DNA of 64,000 nucleotides from the NCBI RefSeq assembly GCF_002906575.1, contig NZ_CP026309.1, forward strand, positions 3,162,001 through 3,226,000. The letters are read 5' to 3'. The notes below the pieces were generated by a model that saw nothing but the letters and a program-made list of their open reading frames with translations, had not been told where the DNA came from and made no database searches. Source of the stretch: Salinigranum rubrum. Its GTDB lineage: Archaea > Halobacteriota > Halobacteria > Halobacteriales > Haloferacaceae. Position 1 is the first letter of the stretch. Each line of letters starts with the position of its first letter. This document shows positions 11,744 through 63,767 of the stretch, one piece after another. A program made the translations under genes and the position numbers.

Positions 11744-12889
11744 CTACTGCTCTGTCGCGTCGACCGACGACTCCCGGGCGAGTTCTCGAATGGCCCGTGC
11801 GACTCGCTCGACCCGGTCGTCGTCCCACTCCGGTCGGTGGTCGTGGAGCTGTTCGACGAGGGCCGCCTCGTCGACCTGTGACGGGGTCGTCTCCCGTCTC
11901 TTCCGGAAGCGCGCACCCAACGACCCAGGGGTGCGGTTGCGTGACGTCACCGCCGCGAGTGTACGAGCAGCGCGGCGTCGGAACCGGCGTCGAACCGACG
12001 ACCGCCCGACGAGCGTGGTCAGGAGGCCGACCACGAGGACGCAGGCCACGCCGACGGCGACCTGGAGTGTCGGAACCGTCTGGACGGCCTCGACCGCTCG
12101 GCCGACGGGCGGGACGGGCCCGCCGTGTGAGTAGTCGAGCAACACGCGGTCGTGTCTGGAGAAGACGTTTCGGACGAACGCGGCGTTGCCCGGCCGGTCG
12201 AGCATGACGTTGATGAGCGCGCTCGAATCGGCGACGACGAGGACGGTGCCCGCACCGATTCGCTCTGCCGTCACGAACGGGTAGGGGCCGAACGACGTGG
12301 GAACGACGCTCCCGTCGGCGTCGACGACGGTGGCGAACTCCGAGGACTCGACGAGGGTCTGCGCATCGTTGGGGACGACGTACGTGCCGTGGTTCAGCGT
12401 GAACGTGTCGACGCCGGTGAGGAGACTCGACGTCGTGTCGGGGCGCGCGACGGGCATCGTCGGGGAGTTGTAGTACGCCTCCTCGTCGACCAGCAGGCGC
12501 CCGTCGAGTCGACTCGTCGCCCCGATGTCGGTCAGAAGGGTGTTGGAGTGGGGCCCGAAGTCCTCGGCGACGACGAGCGTCCCGCCCCGACGGACGAACC
12601 GCTCGACCTGAGCGGCTTCCTCGGGAGCGTACGGACGGGTCGGCGAGAGGACGACCGCGACGGTTCCCGGCGCAGGGGTCGTCCCGTACGCCGCGACGTC
12701 GAGCGTGATGTCGCTTTCGACCTCGGCGTCCGTCGCGAGCGCCTGGAGTTCGGAGCCACCGTGCCACTGGCCGTTGTACGGGCTGAACGAGGCCGTCGAA
12801 GTCGCCGTCGCAGCCACGAGCGCGACGACGACGACGAGCGTGAAGACGAGCAGCGACCACTCGCTTCGCTGCAGTCGGCCGAGGGACAT
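11744..12889 (-). CDS. DUF4350 domain membrane protein
   Basis: 381 residues. The start ATG 12889 was chosen because it overlaps the stop of the upstream 89-residue gene; the frame runs further upstream, but that stretch is antisense to that gene. Residues 12-35 form an N-terminal transmembrane helix (LLVFTLVVVVALVAATA). A GATase-like DUF4350 domain follows, with VAVVLSPTRPYAPEEAAQV, VRRGGTLVVAEDFG and VLVVADSSALINVML. A second transmembrane helix lies near residues 275-300 (VAVGVACVLVVGLLTTLVG), followed by a basic then acidic cytoplasmic tail. DUF4350 proteins sit beside DUF58/MoxR/DUF4129 genes in many genomes and are thought to be part of the same envelope module; the reaction is unknown. 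The convergent plus-strand gene ends 223 bp away. Confidence 0.85.
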   Translation of the reverse strand: MSLGRLQRSEWSLLVFTLVVVVALVAATATSTASFSPYNGQWHGGSELQALATDAEVESDITLDVAAYGTTPAPGTVAVVLSPTRPYAPEEAAQVERFVRRGGTLVVAEDFGPHSNTLLTDIGATSRLDGRLLVDEEAYYNSPTMPVARPDTTSSLLTGVDTFTLNHGTYVVPNDAQTLVESSEFATVVDADGSVVPTSFGPYPFVTAERIGAGTVLVVADSSALINVMLDRPGNAAFVRNVFSRHDRVLLDYSHGGPVPPVGRAVEAVQTVPTLQVAVGVACVLVVGLLTTLVGRSSVRRRFRRRAARTLAAVTSRNRTPGSLGARFRKRRETTPSQVDEAALVEQLHDHRPEWDDDRVERVARAIRELARESSVDATEQ

Positions 12890-13158
12890 CAGAGCGTCCC
12901 GGCCCACGCGGCCATGACCGCCGTCACGACGACGTAACCGAAGCCGACGACTCCGACCAGTGTGATCGGCAGGAGGCGGCGGCGCCAGTTCGCCGTTCGG
13001 TTGACGGGCGCTGTCAGTTCGCTCAAGACGAGATACCCCAAAAACGAGACGACGTACAGCCGCTCGAAGGAGAGCGAGTCGAGAACCGAGAGGACGGCGG
13101 CACCGAGGACCATCCACAGCGTGACCAGGCGGACGAATCGGAGCCGTTGCGGTACCAT
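12889..13158 (-). CDS. Small membrane protein coupled to the DUF4350 gene
   Basis: 89 residues with a basic N-terminus (MVPQRLRFVRL) and probably three hydrophobic segments: VTLWMVLGAAVLSVLDSL, LYVVSFLGYLVLSEL and LLPITLVGVVGFGYVVVTAVM. Its stop codon overlaps the ATG of the DUF4350 gene, so the two are translationally coupled and likely form one membrane unit. No enzymatic motif is visible, and the protein looks like a small scaffold or assembly subunit. This is inferred from coupling and size only. Confidence 0.75.
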   Translation of the reverse strand: MVPQRLRFVRLVTLWMVLGAAVLSVLDSLSFERLYVVSFLGYLVLSELTAPVNRTANWRRRLLPITLVGVVGFGYVVVTAVMAAWAGTL

Positions 13159-13675
13159 TACACGGATCTAACGCGGTCCCCAGCGTTAGTTTGTCAGCAC
13201 ATAACCCCGCGACGTCGCCGTCTCGACACCGACGAGCGACCGCTCGCCGTGCATACCGAGGCCGAACCGTACGTACAGAGACCGAGCCACGGGTACTGAA
13301 ACCGAAACGCCGACTCGCGTGATTCGCGCGACGCGTACAACACCGGAAAACGACGACTGACCGACCGTGTCGACGAGCGGAGCGGCGCCAGTCCGAAACA
13401 GGGGCCAGTCCGAACTGCGAGCCTGTTCGTCTGCCGCTCGTCGGTTTTCGGCAATCAGATGTGAACGTTAGGAGACCATTTGTGATCGATCTATCCGTCG
13501 AAACGCCCGAAACCGCGGGCGGAAGGCTACGCCGTGGACCGGCAAAAGCGACCTGACAGGCGCTGAGACCGTCGATTTATACTGGTAATACAACCACGCG
13601 TATAGCTTCGCGATAATCATGATAGCTGTATTATAACTATCCACGTTCCTCGCCTCGGTTCTGACCGAACATAAC
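13159..13675. other. 517-bp gap, divergent promoter region
   Basis: No credible coding sequence: possible frames are short, Arg-rich and antisense-like. An AT-rich block at about 13600-13640, with a TATA-like GTATTATAAC at 13628-13637, lies about 40 nt before the epimerase gene and probably drives it. Confidence 0.4.
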
Positions 13676-14692
13676 ATGCACACAACCTGGAACCAGACCC
13701 CGGTCCTCGTCACCGGCGGAGCAGGCTTCATCGGTTCGTTCCTCGTCGAACGACTCGTCGCACTCGGTGCCGACGTCGTCGTCGCGGACAACCTCTCGCG
13801 TGGAGGCGCCGACAAGCTGGCCGCCGTGGTCGACCAGGTCGAACTCCGCCCCGTCGACCTCACGACGATGGAGGGCTGTCTCCGCGCGACCGAGGGGGTA
13901 GAGGTCGTCTTCCATCTCGCGGCTAGCGTCGGCGGCGTCCACTACATCGAGCGTGAGAACGTCGGCGGATTGACGCCGAGCGTGCTGATGAACCAGCACG
14001 TCCTCGAAGCCTGCCGCATCCGCGGTATCGACCGTCTCGTCTTCGCGTCGAGCGCCTGTATCTACCGGCAGCGGACCGACGACCTCAACGAGTTCAGCGA
14101 GGACCAGGGCTACCCCGCACACCCCTTCTCCACGTACGGCTGGGCGAAGGTCCTCGGCGAAGTCGCCTGCAAGGCGTACCACGACGACTACGGGATGCAG
14201 ACCGTCTCGGCCCGTATCTTCAACGCGTACGGCCCGCGCGAGAGCTTAGACCCCGACTCCAGCCACGTCATCCCGTCGCTCTGTCGGAAGGTCATCGAGG
14301 CTCCCGACGGCGGCAGCATCGAGATTTTCGGCGACGGCACCCAGGAACGGGGCTTCATCTACGTGACCGACCTCGTCGACGGACTCGTCCGCGCGGCCGA
14401 GGTGAAAGGCGACGGCGGCGTCGTCAACATCGGAAACGCCCACGAGGTCGTCAGCATCGCCGACCTCGCCGCCCGCGTCATCGCTATCTCCGGGAAAGAG
14501 CTACAAATCGAACACGACCTCTCCGGGCCGACCGGAACCAACCGCTACTGCGCAGATATGACTACTATGAAGAAGGAACTGAACTGGGAACCGACCGTCT
14601 CTCTCGACGACGGGTTGAAACGCGTGTACGACTGGGCGGCCGACGAACTCGGCGCCAAACGGCCCGTGCTGGCCGACGGAGGGGACCGATGA
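13676..14692 (+). CDS. NAD-dependent epimerase/dehydratase, extended SDR (nucleotide-sugar)
   Basis: 338 residues. The dinucleotide-binding motif TGGAGFIGS is at residues 13-21. The catalytic region has Ser125-Ser126 (FASSACIY) and Tyr154-x3-Lys158 (YGWAK), all intact. NAYGPRES and GDGTQERGFIYVTDLV are typical nucleotide-sugar-binding segments of the UDP-glucose 4-epimerase / GDP-sugar epimerase branch. The cytoplasmic product would interconvert or dehydrate a nucleotide-bound sugar for surface glycan synthesis; the exact sugar is not readable. It is the first gene of a three-gene set with a second SDR (overlapping ATGA) and a GT4 transferase. A TATA-like element lies about 40 nt upstream. 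Confidence 0.92.
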   Translation: MHTTWNQTPVLVTGGAGFIGSFLVERLVALGADVVVADNLSRGGADKLAAVVDQVELRPVDLTTMEGCLRATEGVEVVFHLAASVGGVHYIERENVGGLTPSVLMNQHVLEACRIRGIDRLVFASSACIYRQRTDDLNEFSEDQGYPAHPFSTYGWAKVLGEVACKAYHDDYGMQTVSARIFNAYGPRESLDPDSSHVIPSLCRKVIEAPDGGSIEIFGDGTQERGFIYVTDLVDGLVRAAEVKGDGGVVNIGNAHEVVSIADLAARVIAISGKELQIEHDLSGPTGTNRYCADMTTMKKELNWEPTVSLDDGLKRVYDWAADELGAKRPVLADGGDR

Positions 14693-15705
14693 GCTTCGTC
14701 GGGGAGCGGGTGCTCGTCACCGGCGGCGCGTCGTTCATCGGCTCGCACCTCGTCGAGGACCTCGTCGCCGCCGGCGCGGACGTCCGCGTCGCCGACGACT
14801 TCTCCTCGGGGCGAAACGAGAACCTCACGGCGGTCTGGGACGACATCGAAGTGGTTGAGGGCGACCTCAAGGACCCCTTCTTCGCCCGCAAGGCCACGGA
14901 GGGAATGGATCGGGTGTTCCACCTCGCCGCCGACCACGGCGGCCGCGGCTACATCTCGAAGTACCCCGCGAACTGCGCGACCAACATGGCGCTCGACAAC
15001 ACCGTGTTCGAGGCCGCCGCGAAGAACGACGTGCCGAAGATCACGTTCGCCTCCAGCGCCTGTGCCTACCCGACCGACATCCAGCAGGAACGGACCCCCC
15101 TCCGAGAGGACATGATCTCCTTCGACGTGCGCGGCGGCGCGTTCGCCGACGAGACGTACGGCTGGGCGAAGCTCATGGGCGAACTCTCGCTCAGGGCGTT
15201 CCACGAGCAGTACGGCGTCGACGCCTCCTCGGTTCGCATCTTCACCGCGTACGGCCCGCGAGAGAACGAATCGCACGCCGTCATCGCGCTCATGGCGAAG
15301 GCGTACGCCGAGCAAGAGCCCTTCCAGATCTGGGGCGACGGCGAGCAGACGCGCAACTTCACCTACGTGAACGACATCACCCGCGCGCTGATGCTCGCGA
15401 GCGAACACATCACCGACGGCTCCGCCGTCAACGCGGGCGTCCCCGACTACATCTCCATCAACGAAGTGTGCGAGGTCATCTTCGACAAACTCGGCTGGCG
15501 TCCCGACGAGATAGACTACATGACCGACAAGCCCGTCGGCGTCAAACACCGCGCCGCGGACACGACCCGCGCCGAGGAACTGCTCGGCTGGACGCCCGAG
15601 TACTCCCTCGAAGCGGGCATCGAGCGGACCCTCGACTGGTACGTCACCCACCGGAAGAAGGAGGACGTCCGCCGCGACCTCGAGACGCTCCTGACCTCGC
15701 GCTGA
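14689..15705 (+). CDS. Second NAD-dependent epimerase/dehydratase, extended SDR
   Basis: 338 residues, starting inside the previous stop (ATGA). TGGASFIGSHL is the cofactor-binding glycine motif. The FASSACAYPT serine and Tyr157-x3-Lys161 (YGWAK) complete the catalytic set. FTAYGPREN and WGDGEQTRNFTYVNDI match the nucleotide-sugar branch. It is a paralogue of the gene before it (same length, same motif spacing, clear sequence similarity), so the pair probably arose by duplication and may act in successive steps or as a heteromer. Product specificity is unknown. Confidence 0.92.
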   Translation: MSFVGERVLVTGGASFIGSHLVEDLVAAGADVRVADDFSSGRNENLTAVWDDIEVVEGDLKDPFFARKATEGMDRVFHLAADHGGRGYISKYPANCATNMALDNTVFEAAAKNDVPKITFASSACAYPTDIQQERTPLREDMISFDVRGGAFADETYGWAKLMGELSLRAFHEQYGVDASSVRIFTAYGPRENESHAVIALMAKAYAEQEPFQIWGDGEQTRNFTYVNDITRALMLASEHITDGSAVNAGVPDYISINEVCEVIFDKLGWRPDEIDYMTDKPVGVKHRAADTTRAEELLGWTPEYSLEAGIERTLDWYVTHRKKEDVRRDLETLLTSR

Positions 15706-54012: not shown

Positions 54013-54609
54013 ATGGTTCGCGTCGACGACTCGGGAGACGTCACGAAGTGCTGGCTCTCCCCAGACGAGCTGACGACTCTCGAACGGTCCGCTGGGAAAG
54101 ACGGTTGGGAGCGAGAGATCGCAGTCCAACTCATGGGACAATGTGGTCTTCGAGCGTCCGAAGTGGGTTACCCCGGTGACCACCACCTTCGCTACTCCGA
54201 AGACGGCAGTGTGTGGCTGTTTGAGGTCCGCGGGAAGAACACAAAAGGAGGCGACCGCAAAACGCGGGATGCCTGGATGCCCGATAACGTCGCTGACGAT
54301 GTCCACAAATACAGCCGTGAGCGGCAACTCGATCCATCGGAGTCGTGGGTCAACGTGAGTACGCCGTCGGTTCGTCGATGGGTGAAAGAGGCGGCTAAAA
54401 CGATTGCTGACAATCTGGACGAACCACGGTGGCGTTCTGTTTCCTCACACGACCTCAGACGCTCCTGGGCGACGTACCACCTCGTTGAGCGTCAGGTCGA
54501 CGTTCGAACGATGATGAGCATCGGTGGCTGGTCCGACTACTCCGCGATTGAGCCGTATCTCGCTGAACCGACAGAAGCGCGAATTGGTGAGGCGATGGGT
54601 GAGAGATGA
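54013..54609 (+). CDS. Tyrosine recombinase, catalytic domain only
   Basis: 198 residues. Arg47 (CGLRASEV), a Lys-containing beta hairpin (RGKNTKGGDRKTR), His146-x2-Arg149 (SHDLRRSWATY), Gly171-Gly172-Trp173 and nucleophile Tyr182 (AIEPYL) are all present. The N-terminal core-binding domain of normal integrases is missing, which is the usual form of a short haloarchaeal integrase group. It may excise or invert DNA rather than integrate alone. Together with the 41.6-kb integrase it brackets the accessory island and precedes csa3 and the cas operon. Confidence 0.85.
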   Translation: MVRVDDSGDVTKCWLSPDELTTLERSAGKDGWEREIAVQLMGQCGLRASEVGYPGDHHLRYSEDGSVWLFEVRGKNTKGGDRKTRDAWMPDNVADDVHKYSRERQLDPSESWVNVSTPSVRRWVKEAAKTIADNLDEPRWRSVSSHDLRRSWATYHLVERQVDVRTMMSIGGWSDYSAIEPYLAEPTEARIGEAMGER

Positions 54610-55045: not shown

Positions 55046-55843
55046 TCACATACTATTCTGCAGTTTAATATCTCTGAGATAGAGTTCTGCACCGAGCGTC
55101 AACCGCCCCACTCGCTCTTTGCCCTCGCGCGACGACTTGACGACACCCGCTTCCTCTAACGAATCAAGATGCCGGCCGACCGTGCTTTTCGATTGGCCTG
55201 TCAACTCGGTTAATTCTGCGACAGAAAGCGTGGTGTTGACAGCGCTATCTCCATCCGTGATTCGGTCGTCGCTCAAAGTTTGCGTCGCCTTGATAAACGC
55301 CTCGAACGTCTTTTCTGCTCGATTCGGGATGTGCGGGTTGACCGTCGGGAGAGCAATCGAGGCTGGTTTCGTGTGTAGATCACCAACCATCACGACCTCC
55401 TCGATATGAGATGGGTGGGCGGCCGCGATCACACTCAACACGAAAAGCAGCTCTCGGACTCCGCCGCCGGGGCACACAATTGTCTCAACAGCCTTCGTTC
55501 CGAGAGATGGGGCCGTGGCTTCGGCATCGTTTTGTGGAATCCCGCGTTGTGCTGCACGCGCAGGGTCAGTCACGAGAGCGCTAACCTCTCGGATTGCAAC
55601 ATCGAACGGGGGGCAGATGACTGGGGCGCTGACGATTCGGATGTCGTCATCGATCCGCTCGAAGAACTCAACGAGTTCCGCTGTCGAGGTGGCTGCTCTC
55701 TCATTCACGAACCCACCGTCGTCGTCGAAGTTCGCAGCTGGTTGCAAGAGAACGATCTGGTCGCCACTGTCAATTCCCGATTTAATCACTGACCGGGTTA
55801 TTCGACGGGTGTCAAACCCAAAACTGGCGATATACTGCCGCAT
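55046..55843 (-). CDS. csa3: Csa3-type CRISPR regulator (CARF + winged helix)
   Basis: 265 residues from ATG 55843, 26 nt after a TATA-like box (complement of 55867-55872). The N-terminal CARF-type Rossmann domain begins YIASFGFDTRRITRSVIKSG with a nucleotide-binding-type Asp/Thr region and contains VCPGGGVRELLFVLSVIAAA, the Gly-rich CARF ligand loop. The C-terminal winged helix (about 205-265) is LSVAELTELTGQSKSTVGRH. Csa3 proteins sense cyclic oligoadenylate-type ligands or act as transcription regulators of cas and adaptation genes. Located divergently upstream of cas6, it is placed to control this operon. Confidence 0.88.
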   Translation of the reverse strand: MRQYIASFGFDTRRITRSVIKSGIDSGDQIVLLQPAANFDDDGGFVNERAATSTAELVEFFERIDDDIRIVSAPVICPPFDVAIREVSALVTDPARAAQRGIPQNDAEATAPSLGTKAVETIVCPGGGVRELLFVLSVIAAAHPSHIEEVVMVGDLHTKPASIALPTVNPHIPNRAEKTFEAFIKATQTLSDDRITDGDSAVNTTLSVAELTELTGQSKSTVGRHLDSLEEAGVVKSSREGKERVGRLTLGAELYLRDIKLQNSM

Positions 55844-55865
55844 ACACGCCAAAGAAAACGCGCCA

Positions 55866-55956
55866 GTATAGTTCTATCGCGCTACCGTAGTGAAATCCTA
55901 ATCTTGAATTGCACTGAATTGCAGACTCTTCTCCATCACACAAAACCTTATGTAAG
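55866..55956. promoter_or_regulatory. Divergent csa3/cas6 promoter region
   Basis: A minus-strand TATA-like GAACTATAC (complement of about 55866-55874) is 26 nt from the csa3 ATG, and CCTTATGTAA (55947-55956) is about 27 nt from the cas6 ATG. Both suggest leaderless mRNAs. Confidence 0.55.
55905..55924. repeat. Tandem 10-bp repeat in the csa3/cas6 promoter region
   Basis: TGAATTGCAC followed immediately by TGAATTGCAG. Ten-base spacing puts both copies on the same helix face, between the two TATA boxes. A candidate Csa3 operator. Confidence 0.5.
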
Positions 55957-55976
55957 AGAAGTTGTCACGAAACTGT

Positions 55977-56798
55977 ATGCAACGAATCGACATGGCACTC
56001 TCGCCGTGTTCGAGTTTCCCGGTCCCGTATTCGACGGGATATCCGACGTATGCTGCTCTATTAGACATATTAGACGGCGTATCCTCGGAGGTGAGCGCGG
56101 CCGTTCACGACTCACCGCTCAGCACCTTCCGGAATAGCGGGCTCCTCGGCGGATTCGGGAGTTCCGAACGGGATCACCATCAACTCGTCCGTGGAGACCG
56201 GACCTACCGAATGAGCATTGGCGTCACCTCTGATGAGGAGCAGTCGGTGTTTCGGTCACTGGTTGACGCGCTCATGTACGACCAGCGCCCCATCGAACTG
56301 ACCGATGGAGTGTTGGAGGTGAAGCAGTTCGAGTCCACACAGGCCACTCACGAGTCACTCCTCGAAGAGGCGACGTCGTATGTGTCGCCGCGCATCCGCG
56401 TCGCGTTCGAGACGCCGACGTGCATCGAAGACGGCACGGATATCCAGACCCGCGTCCCCCACCGGATTCCAGTCTTCGAGTCGCTGCGAAACAAGTGGAA
56501 CAAGACGGCACCGGAGCAGTATCAGTTAGACATCACGCGGGATGATATCCGACAGAACGTCATCGCGCAGCCGAACCCCCGGACGTACCGCAAACACAAG
56601 GTAATGAAGGGACGCAGTGAGGACGGCCAGCTCTTGTTCATTCACGGGTTTACGTGTGACTGGGAAGCGTGGTTCCATAAGGCATCCGATGCACAGCAGA
56701 CTGCCCTGACGGCACTCATGCTCTATGCCGAATATAGCGGCATTGGCAACGCCGTCGCGCGTGGGTGTGGCTCGGTCTCTGTGGAGGTACAGGACTGA
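55977..56798 (+). CDS. cas6: Cas6 family CRISPR RNA endoribonuclease
   Basis: 273 residues from ATG 55977; an ATG at 55962 is too close to the TATA box. The C-terminal Gly-rich loop SGIGNAVARGCGSVSVE is the Cas6 RAMP signature. The N-terminal ferredoxin-like half has short strand patterns (YRMSIGVTSDEEQSVFRSLV). It should cut pre-crRNA within repeats to give the crRNA for the type I-D complex. The His usually used in catalysis is not clear by eye. The stop overlaps the cas10d start (TGATG). Confidence 0.85.
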   Translation: MQRIDMALSPCSSFPVPYSTGYPTYAALLDILDGVSSEVSAAVHDSPLSTFRNSGLLGGFGSSERDHHQLVRGDRTYRMSIGVTSDEEQSVFRSLVDALMYDQRPIELTDGVLEVKQFESTQATHESLLEEATSYVSPRIRVAFETPTCIEDGTDIQTRVPHRIPVFESLRNKWNKTAPEQYQLDITRDDIRQNVIAQPNPRTYRKHKVMKGRSEDGQLLFIHGFTCDWEAWFHKASDAQQTALTALMLYAEYSGIGNAVARGCGSVSVEVQD

Positions 56799-59700
56799 TG
56801 CCGCAGGAAGACGGTGAGCAACGTCACCTCGGTGAGTTTGATGTCGGCGGTGACGAGGCTCTGGAGTCACCTCCAGCCGAGGGCAACGAGACAGGGCAGA
56901 TCGCCGCTGAACTCTACGCAGACCCGCTTCAGAACTTAGGCCGAGACGAGGAGTCCCCGAGTTCGACCCTCACAGAGAGGTTTTCGAGGAGTATGCGACT
57001 GAGATCGACCCCAAACTCATCGAGTCAGGGTGGCTGTTCAGCCAGAACAAGAGCGTTGAGTACGGAAAAGTGGATCAGTCGATGCTCAATCACACGCGGA
57101 ATCTGGTCTTTTTCCTCCACCGCCTCGCGACGGTTGCAGAGGAGAGCCGAATACAGCCAATCTCTCCAGATGAACTTCGTGAACTCATCGCGCTCGCTGT
57201 TGCTCACGACTTTCACAAACTCCGTGCTGAGGACGAGAACCCAGCGACTCGGTTCAATATCACCGAACAGGAGATGGATGCGTTTGTCGCCGACTTCGGA
57301 CTCGATGAGTTCGCCCCTAATCTCAACGTTCGCGACTTCCACTCGTGTGCAGTAGACCACCACGACAGCGATGCAGCCCGCTCGACGGAGGTAACGCTTC
57401 GGTGGGAAGACTATCGACCACTCATTCGGCTCGCAGACGGGATGGCCTCCTGTACGACACCACAGGAAGCAACGAATCAGCGGATGCAGTCAACGTTCCA
57501 TGAGGCGTTCCCTGGTGAGCCGGTGAAACTGGTCAACCACCAGATTGATCACGTTACCGGTGTCTTCACGAACCTGCTAAATGCGACTGTTTCGGAGTAT
57601 CTCAACGAGAACTTCGACTACACCTGCCTGACCATCTATCAGGATGGGTGCGTCTATCTCGCACCACGGGATGCCCCGGAGCCGGCCAACGACGCTGAGT
57701 TGGCGGACGCACTAATGCGGAAGGTTGGCGCGAACATCAGCGACAGTCATCCTGCATACCGCTCTATCGACCAACTCCAGTCGAACATCGGAAGTGGGGC
57801 GCGGTACAGCCTCAACGATCCTGACTTCTTTTACGCGGGGTCAGCGCGATTGCTCCGGGCAACGGTTCGCAAAGGCATGACAGATGGCGCCGCCGACGAT
57901 GAGCCGACTGACGCTGCCCGTACGTCGATGGAGTTGTTGGAGGAGGGACTGGACACTGAGTTCTCGATGACGAAGCAGCAACAGGGTGCAGCCCGCTTCG
58001 TCAACGCAATCAAATCCGACTTCGTGAGCCCACTCCGGCCAGATGCAGGTGGCTTTGAATTGATTCGACCGACTGTCGAAGCGTTCGGCTTCGATGAGGC
58101 ACTCGCGGACTCGCTTGAAGAACTCCCCGAAGGCGTACACAGCAACCTCGTGAGTGGAGGGAAATGGGACTATTCGTACGCTCTCGCTCAGCGGCTCCTT
58201 GATCAGTTCGGAGAGGGTGAGGCGCTTCGTGAGTCCTCCGACGAAATCATGGAGACGCTCGAAGAAAGACTCGAAGGCCTTGTCGAGACGGACGACCAGA
58301 ACGTCGGTTGGGCTACGGTCGTCCAGCAGGCGCACGCAGGGGCGCTCGCTGGCGAGGTGCGAGCGTTCATCGAAGAAAACCTGCGGGTCGGCAAAGGCGC
58401 GCTCAGCGACGAGAGCGCTACGACAGACACGTTCGATGAATACGTGAAGAAGTCACGAGCGAAAACCTGCACGCTGTGTAGTCGCGGGGTCAGAGCAGGT
58501 GGGAATCTCACTCCGATGAAGTCGAAAAAGTCACTCTCGACGCTCCAGGCTGGCTTCACCAATCGCAAGCAGATCGGCCGAAACAAGGAGGACAAACTGA
58601 TCCTCTGTGCCGCGTGTCGCATCGAATTCTCGCTCCGTGAGACGGCGGCTGAGCGCCGTCAGGATGGACGATTATTTTTCCACCTCGTCCCAGACTACTT
58701 CTTCACACCGTTCTCGTGGCAACTCACTGATCGGTTAGTAAACCGATTCACGGGCGAGAACCGCGTCCGATTGGGGCGCCTTGCTGAAGCGGTCTACGAT
58801 ATGCAGACACCGGAAGGTTTCGGCGCCATCATGGACGAAGTGACCCAGCCGGAGGGCAACGGCGGCCGGACGATGTTCGAGTCGCTCGGACGGGATTTCG
58901 ACCACAATCTCCAGTTCGGCTCACAGACGATTGGATATTTCAAAGTCCCCGACAACGACACTGAATTCCAGTTCTTCGGTGCATTCCTCGCGCTGTCTAT
59001 CAGCGCGTACACGGGAATGCGCGTCTACATGAGCCAATCGCCGGTGCCTGAGATGCGGGCTCGTGAATTCCCCGAGTTCGCCAAGCTAGGCGGCGGGTTC
59101 ACCCAAGTCACCCAGTTCTACGGCGAGTCTGTCTCGTTGAGTGAACTGCCGACGACACTCCGTCGAGCAGCAGCTCTGATTCAACTCGGGCACGCGCTGC
59201 AGGGGAGTTCGCGGAACGACTCCCTGTTTGCGAAGTATCTCCGAGTGAGCCGCAACGAGTTACTCCCCGGGGCGCACCTGCTCAAGCGGGCGATCCAATC
59301 CTCAGATGAGGGGCTCTACATTCCTGCCCTGATGAGATATGCAGTCGCGCTCGACGAAGGGCGCGGCATCGCACGATTCAATGACAGCATGAGTGAGACA
59401 CCTCACAGCCGCATCACCCGACTCGCAGAACTCGCGTTCGATGCAATCCGGCCGAACACTCGGGGCAACAAGCCCCACCGGGTTGAACGCGTCTTCCGCG
59501 AGAGTGTGAAAGCGGTCACGAAAACAGGCGGACAGCTCAGCCGAGAGGATTACACGATGCTCGTTTCGGGCCGAATACAGAAGATGCTCGACCGGCAGGC
59601 CGGCAACGGGATCTACCCAGTCAGCCACGAAGACTCTGAGGCCGGCACCTCGCTCCAAGAACGGATTGAAGACTATTCGGGGTTCTTCGTGGATGAAATT

Positions 59701-59874
59701 CTGTTCGGTATCGCGAACGGGCGCCCGTCGCAACTCAAGCGACTGGAGAACAACCTCGCAGACGGCTTCTTCGGGGCGACACTACGGCTGAGCAACGAGC
59801 AGTATCAAGAACAACACGGCGATGACGCCGAGACAGAGACGGCTGCGACTGCAGACAATAAGGAGGACATCTAA
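56798..59874 (+). CDS. cas10d: Cas10d/Csc3, large subunit of type I-D with HD nuclease domain; N-terminal single-base frameshift
   Basis: Starts at ATG 56798 inside the cas6 stop. The first 50 codons (MPQEDGEQRHLGEF and GQIAAELYADPLQNL) are followed by a break at the C4 run 56955-56958. One added C continues PEFDPHREVFEEYATEIDPK and LIESGWLFSQNKSVEYGKVD into the main frame; corrected length is 1025 residues. The HD-type nuclease domain has His137-Asp138 (AVAHDFHKL) and a second VDHHD cluster. A zinc finger uses CTLCSRG and CAACR, followed by the palm-like core. In type I-D this HD, not Cas3, cuts DNA. The split is probably a sequence error, not loss of function. Confidence 0.9.
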
Positions 59875-60851
59875 TGTTAGACGATTCCATTACCACGGCA
59901 CTCGAGAACAGCACCGTCCCGATGGATGGGATGACGAACACCCCAGGCACAAACTACACGACAATACTCGTGCTGCGGGAATTAGAGAGCCACGCCATCT
60001 TCACCACCAACGGGCAGGACGCTGACATCGCCTCCCTCTCGGTTGTCGGAGAGGAGGGGAGCATCGAATACTCGCCGGGGTTGATGTTCATGCGGAAACA
60101 GACCGGCAGCGACCGGCGTATGGGCAAGGCAATCCAGCGTGAACTACTGGACTACGAGAAGGACGATTCGATGGAGGTCAACGAGATGAACCCCCGCTCG
60201 GTCGAGTCGGCACTCTACGGGAGTGCAGCCAGCGGGGACGATGAGGTGGACATCGGCGTGACCTCACGAGTCATGTACGATACGGCGTTCAGCGTGCGTG
60301 ACGCGAGTGCCTGTATCGACGAGAAATTTCAGAACGCACCTGGTGAGGGCTACGCCAAGGGTTCGAAGGCCACTATCCGCGAGCCGGACTTCTTCGAACC
60401 GGGCACTCTCTTCCCGTGTGCTATCACGCTCCGAGACGCGACGCCTGCGGAGGTCGCGTTCGTCCTCGCCATCACGAAACGGAACAAGCGGTACGGGGCA
60501 GCGACCACGCGTCTCGGTCGGGTGAAAAATCACGTCCTCGGTGTGTACACCGGCTCTGAGGAAGGCCCATCGAACCGCGAACTGACTGCAGGTGTCATCA
60601 ATGCCTTCGCAAGTGAAGACGACCGCACGATGGCCGATGTTGTGCAGGCGGCTGCGCTCGATGTCGCCGTCGCCAAGGAGGCGACCCGCGCAACCTACGA
60701 CGCAGCGTGTGAGTCAGGTATTTCCCAGTCAGCGGTCGATGAGTCGATCGTGGACGATTTGCTCGAACTGACCGCGGATGAAGAACTTCGGGGTGTCCTT
60801 GAGGCACAGCGTGACCGCTCGGCGGCGTTCATCGACGCTGCACTCGACTGA
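59874..60851 (+). CDS. csc2: Cas7d/Csc2, type I-D backbone subunit
   Basis: 325 residues; the ATG overlaps the cas10d stop (TAATG), and an AGGAGG Shine-Dalgarno lies at 59861-59866. The Csc2 pattern is visible: an N-terminal RRM-like strand (YTTILVLRELESHAIFTTNG), the insertion VNEMNPRSVESALYGSAASG, and the loop RYGAATTRLGRVKNHVLGVY. The C-terminal half is helical. Several copies of Cas7d line up along the crRNA in the I-D complex. Follows cas10d as in known I-D operons. Confidence 0.9.
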   Translation: MLDDSITTALENSTVPMDGMTNTPGTNYTTILVLRELESHAIFTTNGQDADIASLSVVGEEGSIEYSPGLMFMRKQTGSDRRMGKAIQRELLDYEKDDSMEVNEMNPRSVESALYGSAASGDDEVDIGVTSRVMYDTAFSVRDASACIDEKFQNAPGEGYAKGSKATIREPDFFEPGTLFPCAITLRDATPAEVAFVLAITKRNKRYGAATTRLGRVKNHVLGVYTGSEEGPSNRELTAGVINAFASEDDRTMADVVQAAALDVAVAKEATRATYDAACESGISQSAVDESIVDDLLELTADEELRGVLEAQRDRSAAFIDAALD

Positions 60852-60862
60852 GGCATCCGCTC

Positions 60863-61621
60863 ATGCAGGTCATCGAAGCGACGATGCTGACACACGGGAA
60901 GGTCGGGTTCGCCTCCCGTGAGGTTGGACGAATGGCCGACACCGAGCCGTGCGTATTGAATACGGCCTTACACTACGCCCTTGGGCTGGCCAGTGGTCGC
61001 TACGTGGATGCCAGCCACCAGCCGACGTATATCGAAGACACCGCTGAGGTGGTGAACGACCTCTACGTCACACCGGCGATTCCGGCCAAGGAAGACAAGC
61101 GCGGCTCTGTTCGTGCGTCGTTCATCACCACTGTTCGGAACGCGCGAGGCGACAAGTACGCGACGCCGAACTACTCAGCCCAGGATGAGCGAAACGAGAA
61201 GGCAAACCTGAACGTGCCTTCGTTCGAGCGTGAGCGGGCGCTCGCACCGGGTAATCTATTTCGCTTCTACGTCTTCCCATACGGGCGGTCAGCCGAGGAG
61301 GCACTGGACGTTCTCCCACGCTATATCCGCCTTGGGAAGAAGCGTGGGAAAGCACGGGTTGCATACCGAACCGTCGGTGCTGAGCGGCGGTCAGGGACGT
61401 TCTCGCTCGGTCACCCACTCAGCATCTACGATCATGAGGCACGACCAACCGGTGGAGTCATCATGAAGCAACTGCAGCCCACCCCTCTCGTCTACGAGGG
61501 AGAGTTCGATACCGACCACTACGCCATCGACTCTCCGTTCAGTGAGAGCTCAGATTACGAAGCGCGCATCTGCTACCCAGCCGATGCGAAGTTCCTCTTG
61601 CAGAAACGAAGCGATGTCTGA
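60863..61621 (+). CDS. csc1: Cas5d/Csc1, type I-D subunit
   Basis: 252 residues starting 12 bases after the csc2 stop. MQVIEATMLTHGKVGFASRE is the first RAMP strand, with further strands at VRASFITTVRNARGDKYATP and KRGKARVAYRTVGAERRSGT. The Gly-rich loop and length fit Csc1, which caps the 5' handle of the crRNA. Its last bases overlap the cas3 start (eight-base overlap). Order csc2-csc1 after cas10d is the type I-D signature. Confidence 0.88.
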   Translation: MQVIEATMLTHGKVGFASREVGRMADTEPCVLNTALHYALGLASGRYVDASHQPTYIEDTAEVVNDLYVTPAIPAKEDKRGSVRASFITTVRNARGDKYATPNYSAQDERNEKANLNVPSFERERALAPGNLFRFYVFPYGRSAEEALDVLPRYIRLGKKRGKARVAYRTVGAERRSGTFSLGHPLSIYDHEARPTGGVIMKQLQPTPLVYEGEFDTDHYAIDSPFSESSDYEARICYPADAKFLLQKRSDV

Positions 61622-63767
61622 CTTCGAGCCACTCACGTTCCGGCTGGCCGGTCTCGGGTTGCGGATGTACCCCGGCGACTACCCGGCACAGAACCTCGAC
61701 CCGCATCGCCACCAGTGGGGGATGTACGACGCGCTGACGAGCGGCATCTCCGGCGCCTTCGTGAACGCAGCCCCAACTGGGAGTGGCAAGACTGAATCGT
61801 GGGTCGCACCGGTCGTCGAGAAGGGGTTAGATACCATCGCTGTGTATCCCACGAACGCACTGATCGAGGATCAGCGACGAGGTATCGATAGGCTGCTCGA
61901 AGACATTGACGGTGGCGACGACGTCGCATTGCTCAATGTCACGAGTGAGACGATCGGTCCGAACGGGAAGTACGCCGAGCAGTTCCCCGAAGCCAAGAGT
62001 AATGGTGAACGGTTGTCGCAGTTGCTGGGACAACAGCTCGGGCGCACATCATACAACACGACAATTCTGCTGACGAACCCCGATACGTTTGTCCTCATGC
62101 GTCGAGGGCTCTACAACAGCCGTGTCGAGAACGTTCGTCGGTTCGAGGTCGCTGTCGTGGACGAGTTCCACCGCGCGAACCGGAAGGAGCAGAACACGAT
62201 GCTGTTCCTGCTCGACGAAATGTATGACCTCGACGAATCAGTCTGTGGGCTGAACCAGCTTGTCTTCCTCAGCGCGACACCGGATGCCGAACTCGAAGCC
62301 AAATTCGAGAACAGTCTATCGGCGCCGTATTATCGGGCTGATGAGTTTGCGTGGGCCGATGACCCCTCGGTCCCGGACGTGCTCGATGGGGAACCCTCAC
62401 AAGTCGATTTTGAGCCTGATGGCCTCCCCGAAGGATACCGGGATATCTTGCCCCCGGTCGAACTCACGGTTTTTCCCTCACAAACGTTCCAGACGGCGAC
62501 GGAGATGCTCGATGACGACTCGTTCGTCTCGCAGGTTCGAGACGGGGAGTGTGTCATCATGCTGGACGGCATCCACGAAGTCGACCGTGTCTACCGAGCG
62601 CTGCGCAACGCTGGTGTTACGGGCGTCGCTCGAATCGATGGCTTTCATCGGAAGAACCTCGAAGAGAAACTGAAGGCTCCGACGCTAGTGAGTAACTCAG
62701 CAGTAGAGGTGGGTGTTAATTTCGACACTGAGCAGATCATGTTCTCCGGTCACGACGCGTCGAGCTTTTTCCAGCGACTCGGCCGCCTGCGGAACCGGGA
62801 GGACGAGTCGGTTGCACGCGGCTACGTGCCTAAATACACGTTCTCAAAGCTGACGGATCTCGATAAGGCGTCTGGCGATATGTGGCTACCACGTGGACGG
62901 TTCGAGGATGAATTGAAGGAAATCTATGTGGATGCCGGTCGCGCACCCGAGTCGTTCGACCGTCGCTACTCGGCTGTTGAGGCGTACGACCACATCAGGA
63001 GTCGCGAGGACAATGCGATGGAAGACCGAAAAAAGGAGCTTCGGCGCGATGGGTACCAGCGGCTCTCGCGTCACTTCTTCCCCGGGGAGACGCTCACGAA
63101 AGACGACGTACAGCGTCTTCACAACGCCGCGAACCGAGGGGTGCTTGACGGCCTGAAGACCTACCGCGGGGAGAGCATTCAAACGCTTGTCTTCGACCAA
63201 CAGGAGCAGAGTATGCAAGCGTACAATATCCCCTACCTGCTTCGACATGGCAGCGTCTCGTTTGTCCCTCGAGAAGAGTTTCTGAATCGAGTTCCCGAGA
63301 GCGAACACGCCGATGTGCGTCGGCTAAAAGAATACAGTGCTGGATACTGCATCTATCGAGGGTCGGCTGACAATGACGGTGAAGCAGCCGAATATGCTGG
63401 CCGGCACGTGGCGTACAAAGCGACTGGACAGCTGTACACCCTGCTGAGTGACCACCCGCGGAACTCACGCGAACCGAAGCGCGTGACAGGGCTGGAGGTT
63501 GAAGTCGACGGGCACGTCGAAGGGTTGAGTCACCTCAAAGACGCACTCAGTGAACGCGAGGTACTCTGCTATGCCCTCGAAGGCAACGCATCGAAAATTC
63601 AGAACCTCTACTCACTCGGCCCGTTTGGATTCATATATCCACTGAGATATTCGGGCGGGGATGCCGCAGTTGCGTTCGGCCATGACGCGCTACATCTCCA
63701 CTGTCGTGTTCAGGATCAAGCCGAGAAGGACGCGGCAGACAACCTGGACGAGGTGTTGGATTGGTAG
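61614..63767 (+). CDS. cas3: Cas3 helicase (Cas3'), type I-D, without HD domain
   Basis: 717 residues from ATG 61614. Motif I is NAAPTGSGKTES (Walker A at 53-60), motif II is VVDEFHRANR (DEFH, 183-186), motif III is FLSATPD, and QRLGRLRNRED is the arginine-finger motif VI. An SF2 helicase with no HD nuclease, as expected in type I-D where the HD is in Cas10d. It unwinds target DNA after the complex has bound it. The longer frame upstream (61542) overlaps csc1 and is not a better start. cas4 follows at once. Confidence 0.93.
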   Translation: MSDFEPLTFRLAGLGLRMYPGDYPAQNLDPHRHQWGMYDALTSGISGAFVNAAPTGSGKTESWVAPVVEKGLDTIAVYPTNALIEDQRRGIDRLLEDIDGGDDVALLNVTSETIGPNGKYAEQFPEAKSNGERLSQLLGQQLGRTSYNTTILLTNPDTFVLMRRGLYNSRVENVRRFEVAVVDEFHRANRKEQNTMLFLLDEMYDLDESVCGLNQLVFLSATPDAELEAKFENSLSAPYYRADEFAWADDPSVPDVLDGEPSQVDFEPDGLPEGYRDILPPVELTVFPSQTFQTATEMLDDDSFVSQVRDGECVIMLDGIHEVDRVYRALRNAGVTGVARIDGFHRKNLEEKLKAPTLVSNSAVEVGVNFDTEQIMFSGHDASSFFQRLGRLRNREDESVARGYVPKYTFSKLTDLDKASGDMWLPRGRFEDELKEIYVDAGRAPESFDRRYSAVEAYDHIRSREDNAMEDRKKELRRDGYQRLSRHFFPGETLTKDDVQRLHNAANRGVLDGLKTYRGESIQTLVFDQQEQSMQAYNIPYLLRHGSVSFVPREEFLNRVPESEHADVRRLKEYSAGYCIYRGSADNDGEAAEYAGRHVAYKATGQLYTLLSDHPRNSREPKRVTGLEVEVDGHVEGLSHLKDALSEREVLCYALEGNASKIQNLYSLGPFGFIYPLRYSGGDAAVAFGHDALHLHCRVQDQAEKDAADNLDEVLDW

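Follow-up and report, generated by a model that had tools for sequence, protein, structure and literature searches.

A conserved 18-bp dyad between csa3 and cas6 as a candidate operator of Csa3 in the type I-D CRISPR-Cas locus of Salinigranum rubrum

Introduction

Palindromes that accompany csa3 genes are already known from Sulfolobales. The Csa3a-associated palindrome CAPPa, TCCC-N8-GGGA, was reported there at acquisition genes of subtype I-A and in CRISPR leaders, 12 bp upstream of the BRE/TATA elements of cas genes (PMC8699464). The site of S. islandicus Csa3a on the csa1 and cas1 promoters, TTCNTAACTAAANANGGNNNGAAA, is an experimentally footprinted imperfect palindrome of a subtype I-A system, located on csa1 directly upstream of the core promoter and associated with activation (PMC4333418). 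Another regulator of the family, Csa3b, acts on the csa1, csa5 and cmr4 promoters, with footprints further upstream, from -168 to -128 and from about -230 to -190; it represses adaptation genes, its binding is strengthened by an analogue of cyclic oligoadenylate (cOA), and its host possesses a type III-B system (PMC7480081). Among haloarchaea, over-expression of the Csa3a-like regulator HFX_2341 of Haloferax mediterranei, encoded away from the cas loci of a type I-B host, repressed cas genes; the term 'binding site' occurs nowhere in the main text of that report (PMC11434293). No description of an operator of an archaeal type I-D Csa3 was found in a literature search with mostly open-access coverage.

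The locus considered here belongs to type I-D and is contained in the window, the whole stretch of 64,000 nucleotides of the S. rubrum genome (4.97 Mb) that was analysed. As with CAPPa, an 18-bp palindrome is conserved in the vicinity of csa3 and of a cas promoter, and ends about 14 bp ahead of an A-rich, BRE-like stretch at position 55940; the letters TCCC-N8-GGGA, however, are absent, and the I-D consensus is GTTGCA-N6-TGCAAC. Up to two such dyads are located between csa3 and cas6, in contrast to the distribution of CAPPa, and the CRISPR leader of the locus itself contains none (best score 0.6 bits with the matrix described below). The I-D site shares imperfect symmetry with the S. islandicus site and differs from it in sequence and in having been read from sequence; with Csa3b it shares the occurrence of a Csa3-family regulator at cas promoters. 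The letters of the dyad and the I-D setting set it apart from the csa3-linked palindromes of Sulfolobales.

Materials and Methods

Searches with Cas6 gave a match in 45 of the order's 392 genomes, and contigs of named genomes contributed 45 loci; the set of relatives comprised 91 loci (L018–L108), the two sources overlapping. On the first pass, 69 loci had a divergent Csa3-like start, five were too short and 17 had none by that pattern. Removal of near-identical intergenic regions reduced the 69 loci to 48. With a better pattern, 12 of these 17 loci, all of the Methanothrix type, proved to have csa3 at a distance of no more than 900 bp. Five remained outside both sets: L061, L062 and L087, with no csa3 detected; L094, with no csa3 within the stretch examined and 17.1 bits ahead of cas6; and L101, where the csa3 start is 944 bp away (7.3 bits).

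De novo motif discovery by expectation maximization (EM) was performed on 47 intergenic regions, with the window excluded and L098 included. L098 was not used in the leave-cluster-out test, in which the window was among the training sequences for other clusters and not for its own. The loci compared are related, and some are nearly identical. The held-out set consisted of 13 Methanothrix-type loci (the 12 recovered loci and L098), namely, Methanothrix and its relatives together with two bins, one of ANME-2 and one labelled Mesotoga, some with an identical site; the matrix applied to it was built on 46 different loci. Of the 45 genomes in which cas6 gave a match, 40 entered the whole-genome counts (all but G012, G039, G175, G342 and G375), and the search for a regulon covered the top five positions in each of 20 loci of 20 kb.

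Results

Organization of the locus

The gene csa3 (55046..55843, minus strand, start codon at 55841–55843) encodes a CARF-wHTH regulator of 265 aa and is separated by 133 bp from cas6 (55977..56798, plus strand, ATG at 55977; PF10040, E 6.5e-10, TIGR01877 below cut-off), the first gene of the I-D operon. It is followed on the plus strand by cas10d/csc3 (57070..59874; TIGR03174, E 1.4e-242), csc2, encoding Cas7 (59874..60851; TIGR03157, E 3.3e-98), csc1, encoding Cas5 (60863..61621; TIGR03159, E 2.4e-62), and the gene of the type I-D Cas3' helicase (61611..63767; TIGR03158, E 1.7e-101), the last four above the curated cut-offs, which assigns the locus to type I-D. Past the end of the window, genes cas4, cas1 and cas2 exceed the cut-offs of TIGR00372, TIGR00287 and TIGR01573, respectively, and a CRISPR array of 50 exact repeats is present (positions 11762–15320 of the extended locus, L109).

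The coordinates of cas10d are those of the listed reading frame, the N-terminus of which is apparently frameshifted upstream, in the region 56798–57070. A frame with ATG at 56798 opens at the cas6 stop and shows weak similarity to the N-terminal residues of a relative (34%, E 5e-5), the body of the gene being in another frame; this may be an assembly error, a restart or a real defect. Just past csa3, at 54013–54609, a tyrosine-recombinase-like frame (PF00589) was found, hinting at a mobile island.

The proposal of the preliminary description that csa3 and cas6 are served by two divergent leaderless promoters is plausible. TATA-like stretches, recognized by sequence and position only, are located about 25 bp ahead of both start codons: at 55865..55872 (minus strand) for csa3 and at 55947..55955 (plus strand, CTTATGTAA, about 25–26 bp 5' of the ATG) for cas6.

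Csa3 protein

Csa3 carries wHTH families, and the Csa3 family TIGR01884 matched in its wHTH part only, with 31.8 bits versus a cut-off of 60.2. The profile of alignment A2 matched the PDB structures of Csa3 6w11, 2wte and 6wxq with E from 2.5e-9 to 4.1e-9 over positions 1–206/207. In a Foldseek search with the AlphaFold model (pLDDT 88.3), the top four rows were Csa3 structures, with TM-scores of 0.65–0.67 by target and 0.52–0.55 by query. A full-length Csa3 fold of CARF and wHTH domains is supported by the predicted structure. The protein is divergent, with 20–33% identity to the other members of A2, and retains the consensus SKSTVGRH of the presumed recognition helix. The ligand-pocket motifs reported for Csa3 are GF[N/D]E-x4-R and L-x2-G-h-R (PMC8699464); the corresponding segments in the window, GFDTRRITR and PGGGVR, are close to these motifs and not identical.

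Neither the order's 392 genomes nor the plasmid collection yielded a closer relative of this protein; csa3 is annotated on the records of 10 of the 14 plasmid hits. The candidate H13, with a 54% match, was rejected: the match is a wHTH stretch, and no cas gene is present among the six features listed beside it.

Tandem repeat and 18-bp dyad

The tandem repeat noted in the preliminary description is present and exact, with the copies TGAATTGCAC at 55905–55914 and TGAATTGCAG at 55915–55924 (plus strand) between csa3 and cas6. As a unit of conservation it failed: TGAATTGCA occurs in one of the 81 divergent csa3/cas6 loci, namely, in the window, and is absent, near-copies included, from the 80 others. 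TGAA ahead of each copy is peculiar to the window. When up to three mismatches are allowed, the 20-mer pattern matches the own genome at a single place. Adjacent 10-mers matching in at least 9 of 10 positions occur at three places in the window (six overlapping hits), versus a mean of 4.35 and a maximum of 17 hits in 20 simulations of a first-order Markov null, and the tandem is thus not rarer than chance and alone proves nothing. Since TGCA reads alike on both strands, a dyad of this spacing also resembles a 10-bp direct repeat, and the weight is carried by the dyad that the tandem overlaps, at 55908–55925.

This 18-bp dyad, ATTGCACTGAATTGCAGA (ATTGCA and TGCAGA around CTGAAT), passed the comparison of relatives' csa3-cas6 intergenic regions that had been proposed as the check. 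EM on the 47 intergenic regions without the window yielded the palindrome GTTGCA-N6-TGCAAC, with the consensus RTTGCA-N6-TGCAAY and a right half that is often TGAAAY; its log likelihood was 223, with 53.2 as the highest value among 12 shuffled sets, and for 30 less closely related loci it was 149.4, with a shuffled maximum of 30.5. With the 47-locus matrix, 55908–55925 scores highest in the window (12.34 bits), by a narrow margin over a coding position (12.26 bits), and is again first with the 46-locus matrix (12.33 versus 12.28 bits). The site is imperfect in its right half, TGCAGA.

In the leave-cluster-out test, 33 of the 47 loci reached at least 10 bits, as did 23 of the 29 clusters represented by their first member, versus 50 of the 1805 control segments of the same loci; 14 held-out loci remained below 10 bits, five of them below 5 bits. 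Of the 13 held-out Methanothrix-type loci, 12 reached at least 12 bits, the exception being L098. The dyad accompanies csa3 in two groups of archaea, haloarchaea and the Methanothrix type.

Position and two-site layout

Best sites of at least 8 bits were found in 44 of the 47 loci, with a matrix trained on the same loci (window excluded). Their distance to the csa3 start is 35–38 bp in 23 cases, 31–32 bp in eight, 7 bp in five, 64–66 bp in three and other in five. In the orientation of csa3, a TATA-like stretch comes at most a few bases after the usual site, as judged by eye; in the one lineage with offset 7, the copy is located between this stretch and the start codon. Of 43 loci, 16 carry a second site of at least 4 bits at a distance of 29 or 30 bp, a count that never exceeded 2 in 200 shuffles; for the reduced set the count is 9 of 27, with 1 as the highest null value.

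The dyad of the window, with an offset of 64 from csa3, occupies the outer position, about 28 bp farther than in most relatives, and begins at -69 of cas6. The right half-site with the highest score in the intergenic region, TAGTGAAAT (55888–55896, 9.0 bits), stands 29 bp from this dyad, at the inner position; it belongs to a degenerate csa3-side copy at 55879..55896 with a poor left half, the whole 18-mer scoring only 0.6 bits. In Methanothrix-type loci, the cas6-side site lies at -71 to -75 and the other site, where seen, at -101/-102. Long intergenic regions of 537 and 420 bp (L091 and L095) contain one dyad close to csa3 (offset 46) and one close to cas6 (-71), a layout that suggests one operator per promoter.

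Occurrence outside the intergenic region and exceptions

The strict dyad RTTGCA-N6-TGCAAY occurs 10 times, in 10 of the 40 genomes, seven times within the csa3-cas6 intergenic region; since the same loci trained the matrix, this count speaks for specificity and not for discovery. The three dyads outside it, two inside long reading frames and one unclear, are at the background level, the reversed control pattern occurring six times in the 40 genomes. Thirty of the 40 genomes lack the strict dyad, including the own one, where the looser pattern RTTGCA-N6-TGCA occurs four times, once at this site, as often as its reversed control. The top-scoring position was in the csa3-cas6 intergenic region in 15 of the 20 loci of 20 kb; other positions outscored it in L110, L115, L116, L117 and L126. 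In three cas6 loci without detected csa3, a small sample, the dyad is absent (best scores 1.1, 0.9 and 3.7 bits).

A strong dyad in L110 (genome G148, 2488–2505, 16.3 bits) is located downstream of csa3, versus 6.5 bits in the csa3-cas6 intergenic region. Several non-coding matches resemble the ends of CRISPR repeats (ATTGAAAC).

Two loci, L057 and L098, possess csa3 and no good site at the usual place. Covariation of the dyad with residues R224-H225 of the helix, to which they had drawn attention, was dropped, as Methanothrix-type Csa3 proteins with RQ have good dyads. In L045 and L083, a perfect dyad stands beside a csa3 frame apparently shortened to 140 and 85 aa, respectively, which could result from recent loss of csa3. 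In the Halocatena-like loci L048 (36 and 66 bp from the csa3 start), L053 and L055 (37 bp), the usual places are occupied by variant dyads such as ATTCCATTCAATTGGAAT; the Csa3 helix of these loci has PKST in place of SKST, and operator specificity has perhaps shifted there. Bins labelled Spirochaetaceae (L065) and Mesotoga (L097) also contain csa3/cas6 loci of haloarchaeal-like and Methanothrix-like character, on contigs that are likely misassigned.

Cyclic oligoadenylates

Control by cyclic oligoadenylates, which the preliminary description had considered, is doubtful, because the enzymes looked for are rarely found and type I-D is, according to a review, not expected to produce cOA (PMC10212523). 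Csm1 (TIGR02578) exceeds the cut-off in three of the 40 genomes, G390, G339 and G327, all of one Halocatena-like genus, the sole one of 30 genera, and Cmr2 (TIGR02577) in none; neither is above cut-off in the other 37 genomes, including the own one. Some match to Csm1 at E 0.001 was obtained in 22 of the 40 genomes, again including the own one, and outside those three it covers only short stretches of the profile start. Cas10d of the window has no GGDD motif.

Discussion

The conservation of the dyad, its position and spacing, and its rarity elsewhere are computational observations. The element is most likely an operator of the type I-D Csa3, bound as a dimer on the 18-bp dyad in a two-site layout; the assignment of Csa3 as the binding protein is inferred from co-location and conservation. 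The operator proposed in the preliminary description for the neighbouring Csa3 is supported in the form of the conserved dyad and not of the direct 10-bp repeat. A Csa3 dimer would recognize RTTGCA-N6-TGCAAY via two winged helices. In the fullest layout, two dyads 29–30 bp apart, about three helical turns, would present themselves on the same face of the DNA, one adjoining the TATA-like stretch of csa3 and the other located ahead of the cas6 core promoter, with its centre about 60 bp 5' of the cas6 start; in the window, the cas6-side dyad is good and the csa3-side copy appears to have shrunk to a half-site. Bound to dyads that are in phase, Csa3 dimers would govern the two divergent promoters. 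For the csa3-side site, autorepression is the simplest and a moderately favoured reading, because this inner site directly adjoins the csa3 TATA-like stretch or, in the lineage with offset 7, falls between the stretch and the start codon. Activation and repression from the cas6-side site are nearly evenly balanced; its place upstream of the core promoter and the analogy with Csa3a of Sulfolobales hint at activation. Because genes from cas6 to cas2 are arranged head to tail, interference and adaptation genes would be set together.

Archaeal genomes encode many wHTH regulators, and the dyad might be bound by one of them, or be a core promoter part (a TFB/BRE variant or the site of a general wHTH factor). 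This is unlikely, though the foremost of the alternatives: the csa3-side site does adjoin the TATA-like stretch of csa3, and the two loci with shortened csa3 keep a perfect dyad, but seven of the 10 strict sites in 40 genomes fall within the csa3-cas6 intergenic region, the dyad goes with csa3 in two archaeal groups, and it is missing from all three cas6 loci without detected csa3, few as these are. Non-specific binding of purified S. solfataricus Csa3a to putative promoters has been reported (PMC8699464) and counts against the reading of the dyad as a Csa3 operator. That Csa3 binds two direct 10-bp half-sites is very improbable: the exact tandem exists, but its 10-bp phase also arises from the dyad, none of the 80 other divergent loci has TGAATTGCA, and the letters conserved in relatives are GTTGCA and its mirror image.

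Two further explanations dispense with a protein operator or with regulation altogether, and both are highly improbable. According to a review, the cas genes of Sulfolobales are repressed by Cascade acting together with Csa3b (PMC10013973), and spacer 9 has 9 nt in common with the dyad (CAGTGCAAT), the longest match found, as autoregulation by Cascade-crRNA through a partial match to a pseudo-repeat or spacer-like site might predict; however, the first 8 nt of none of the 49 spacers of the own array are present in the intergenic region, and the match between repeat and intergenic region is no better than in shuffles, 39 of 100 of which reach it. A chance promoter-region word without a regulatory role in the own genome would agree with the 12 of 2000 shuffles of the intergenic region that equal the dyad score, with the 50 of 1805 control segments at 10 bits and with a tandem no rarer than expected, but not with the start at -69 of cas6, which agrees with the conserved place, or with the best right half-site of the intergenic region 29 bp from the dyad.

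Read as a Csa3 operator, the dyad provides a precise candidate control site, open to experimental test, for I-D loci both in haloarchaea and in archaea of the Methanothrix type, with a rule usable as a guide in haloarchaea: an 18-bp dyad, steps of 29–30 bp and perhaps one site per promoter. A puzzle accompanies it, namely, a CARF regulator with near-intact pocket motifs maintained where Csm1 and Cmr2 were not found above cut-off (37 of the 40 genomes). Tentatively, and at somewhat less than even chances, the two-dyad Csa3 switch may be an old, self-contained control device of type I-D, common to haloarchaea and Methanothrix-type archaea and independent of type III cOA, in which the CARF domain would sense another signal or the I-D effector, and csa3 and the operon from cas6 to cas2 would be set via two separate phased operators.
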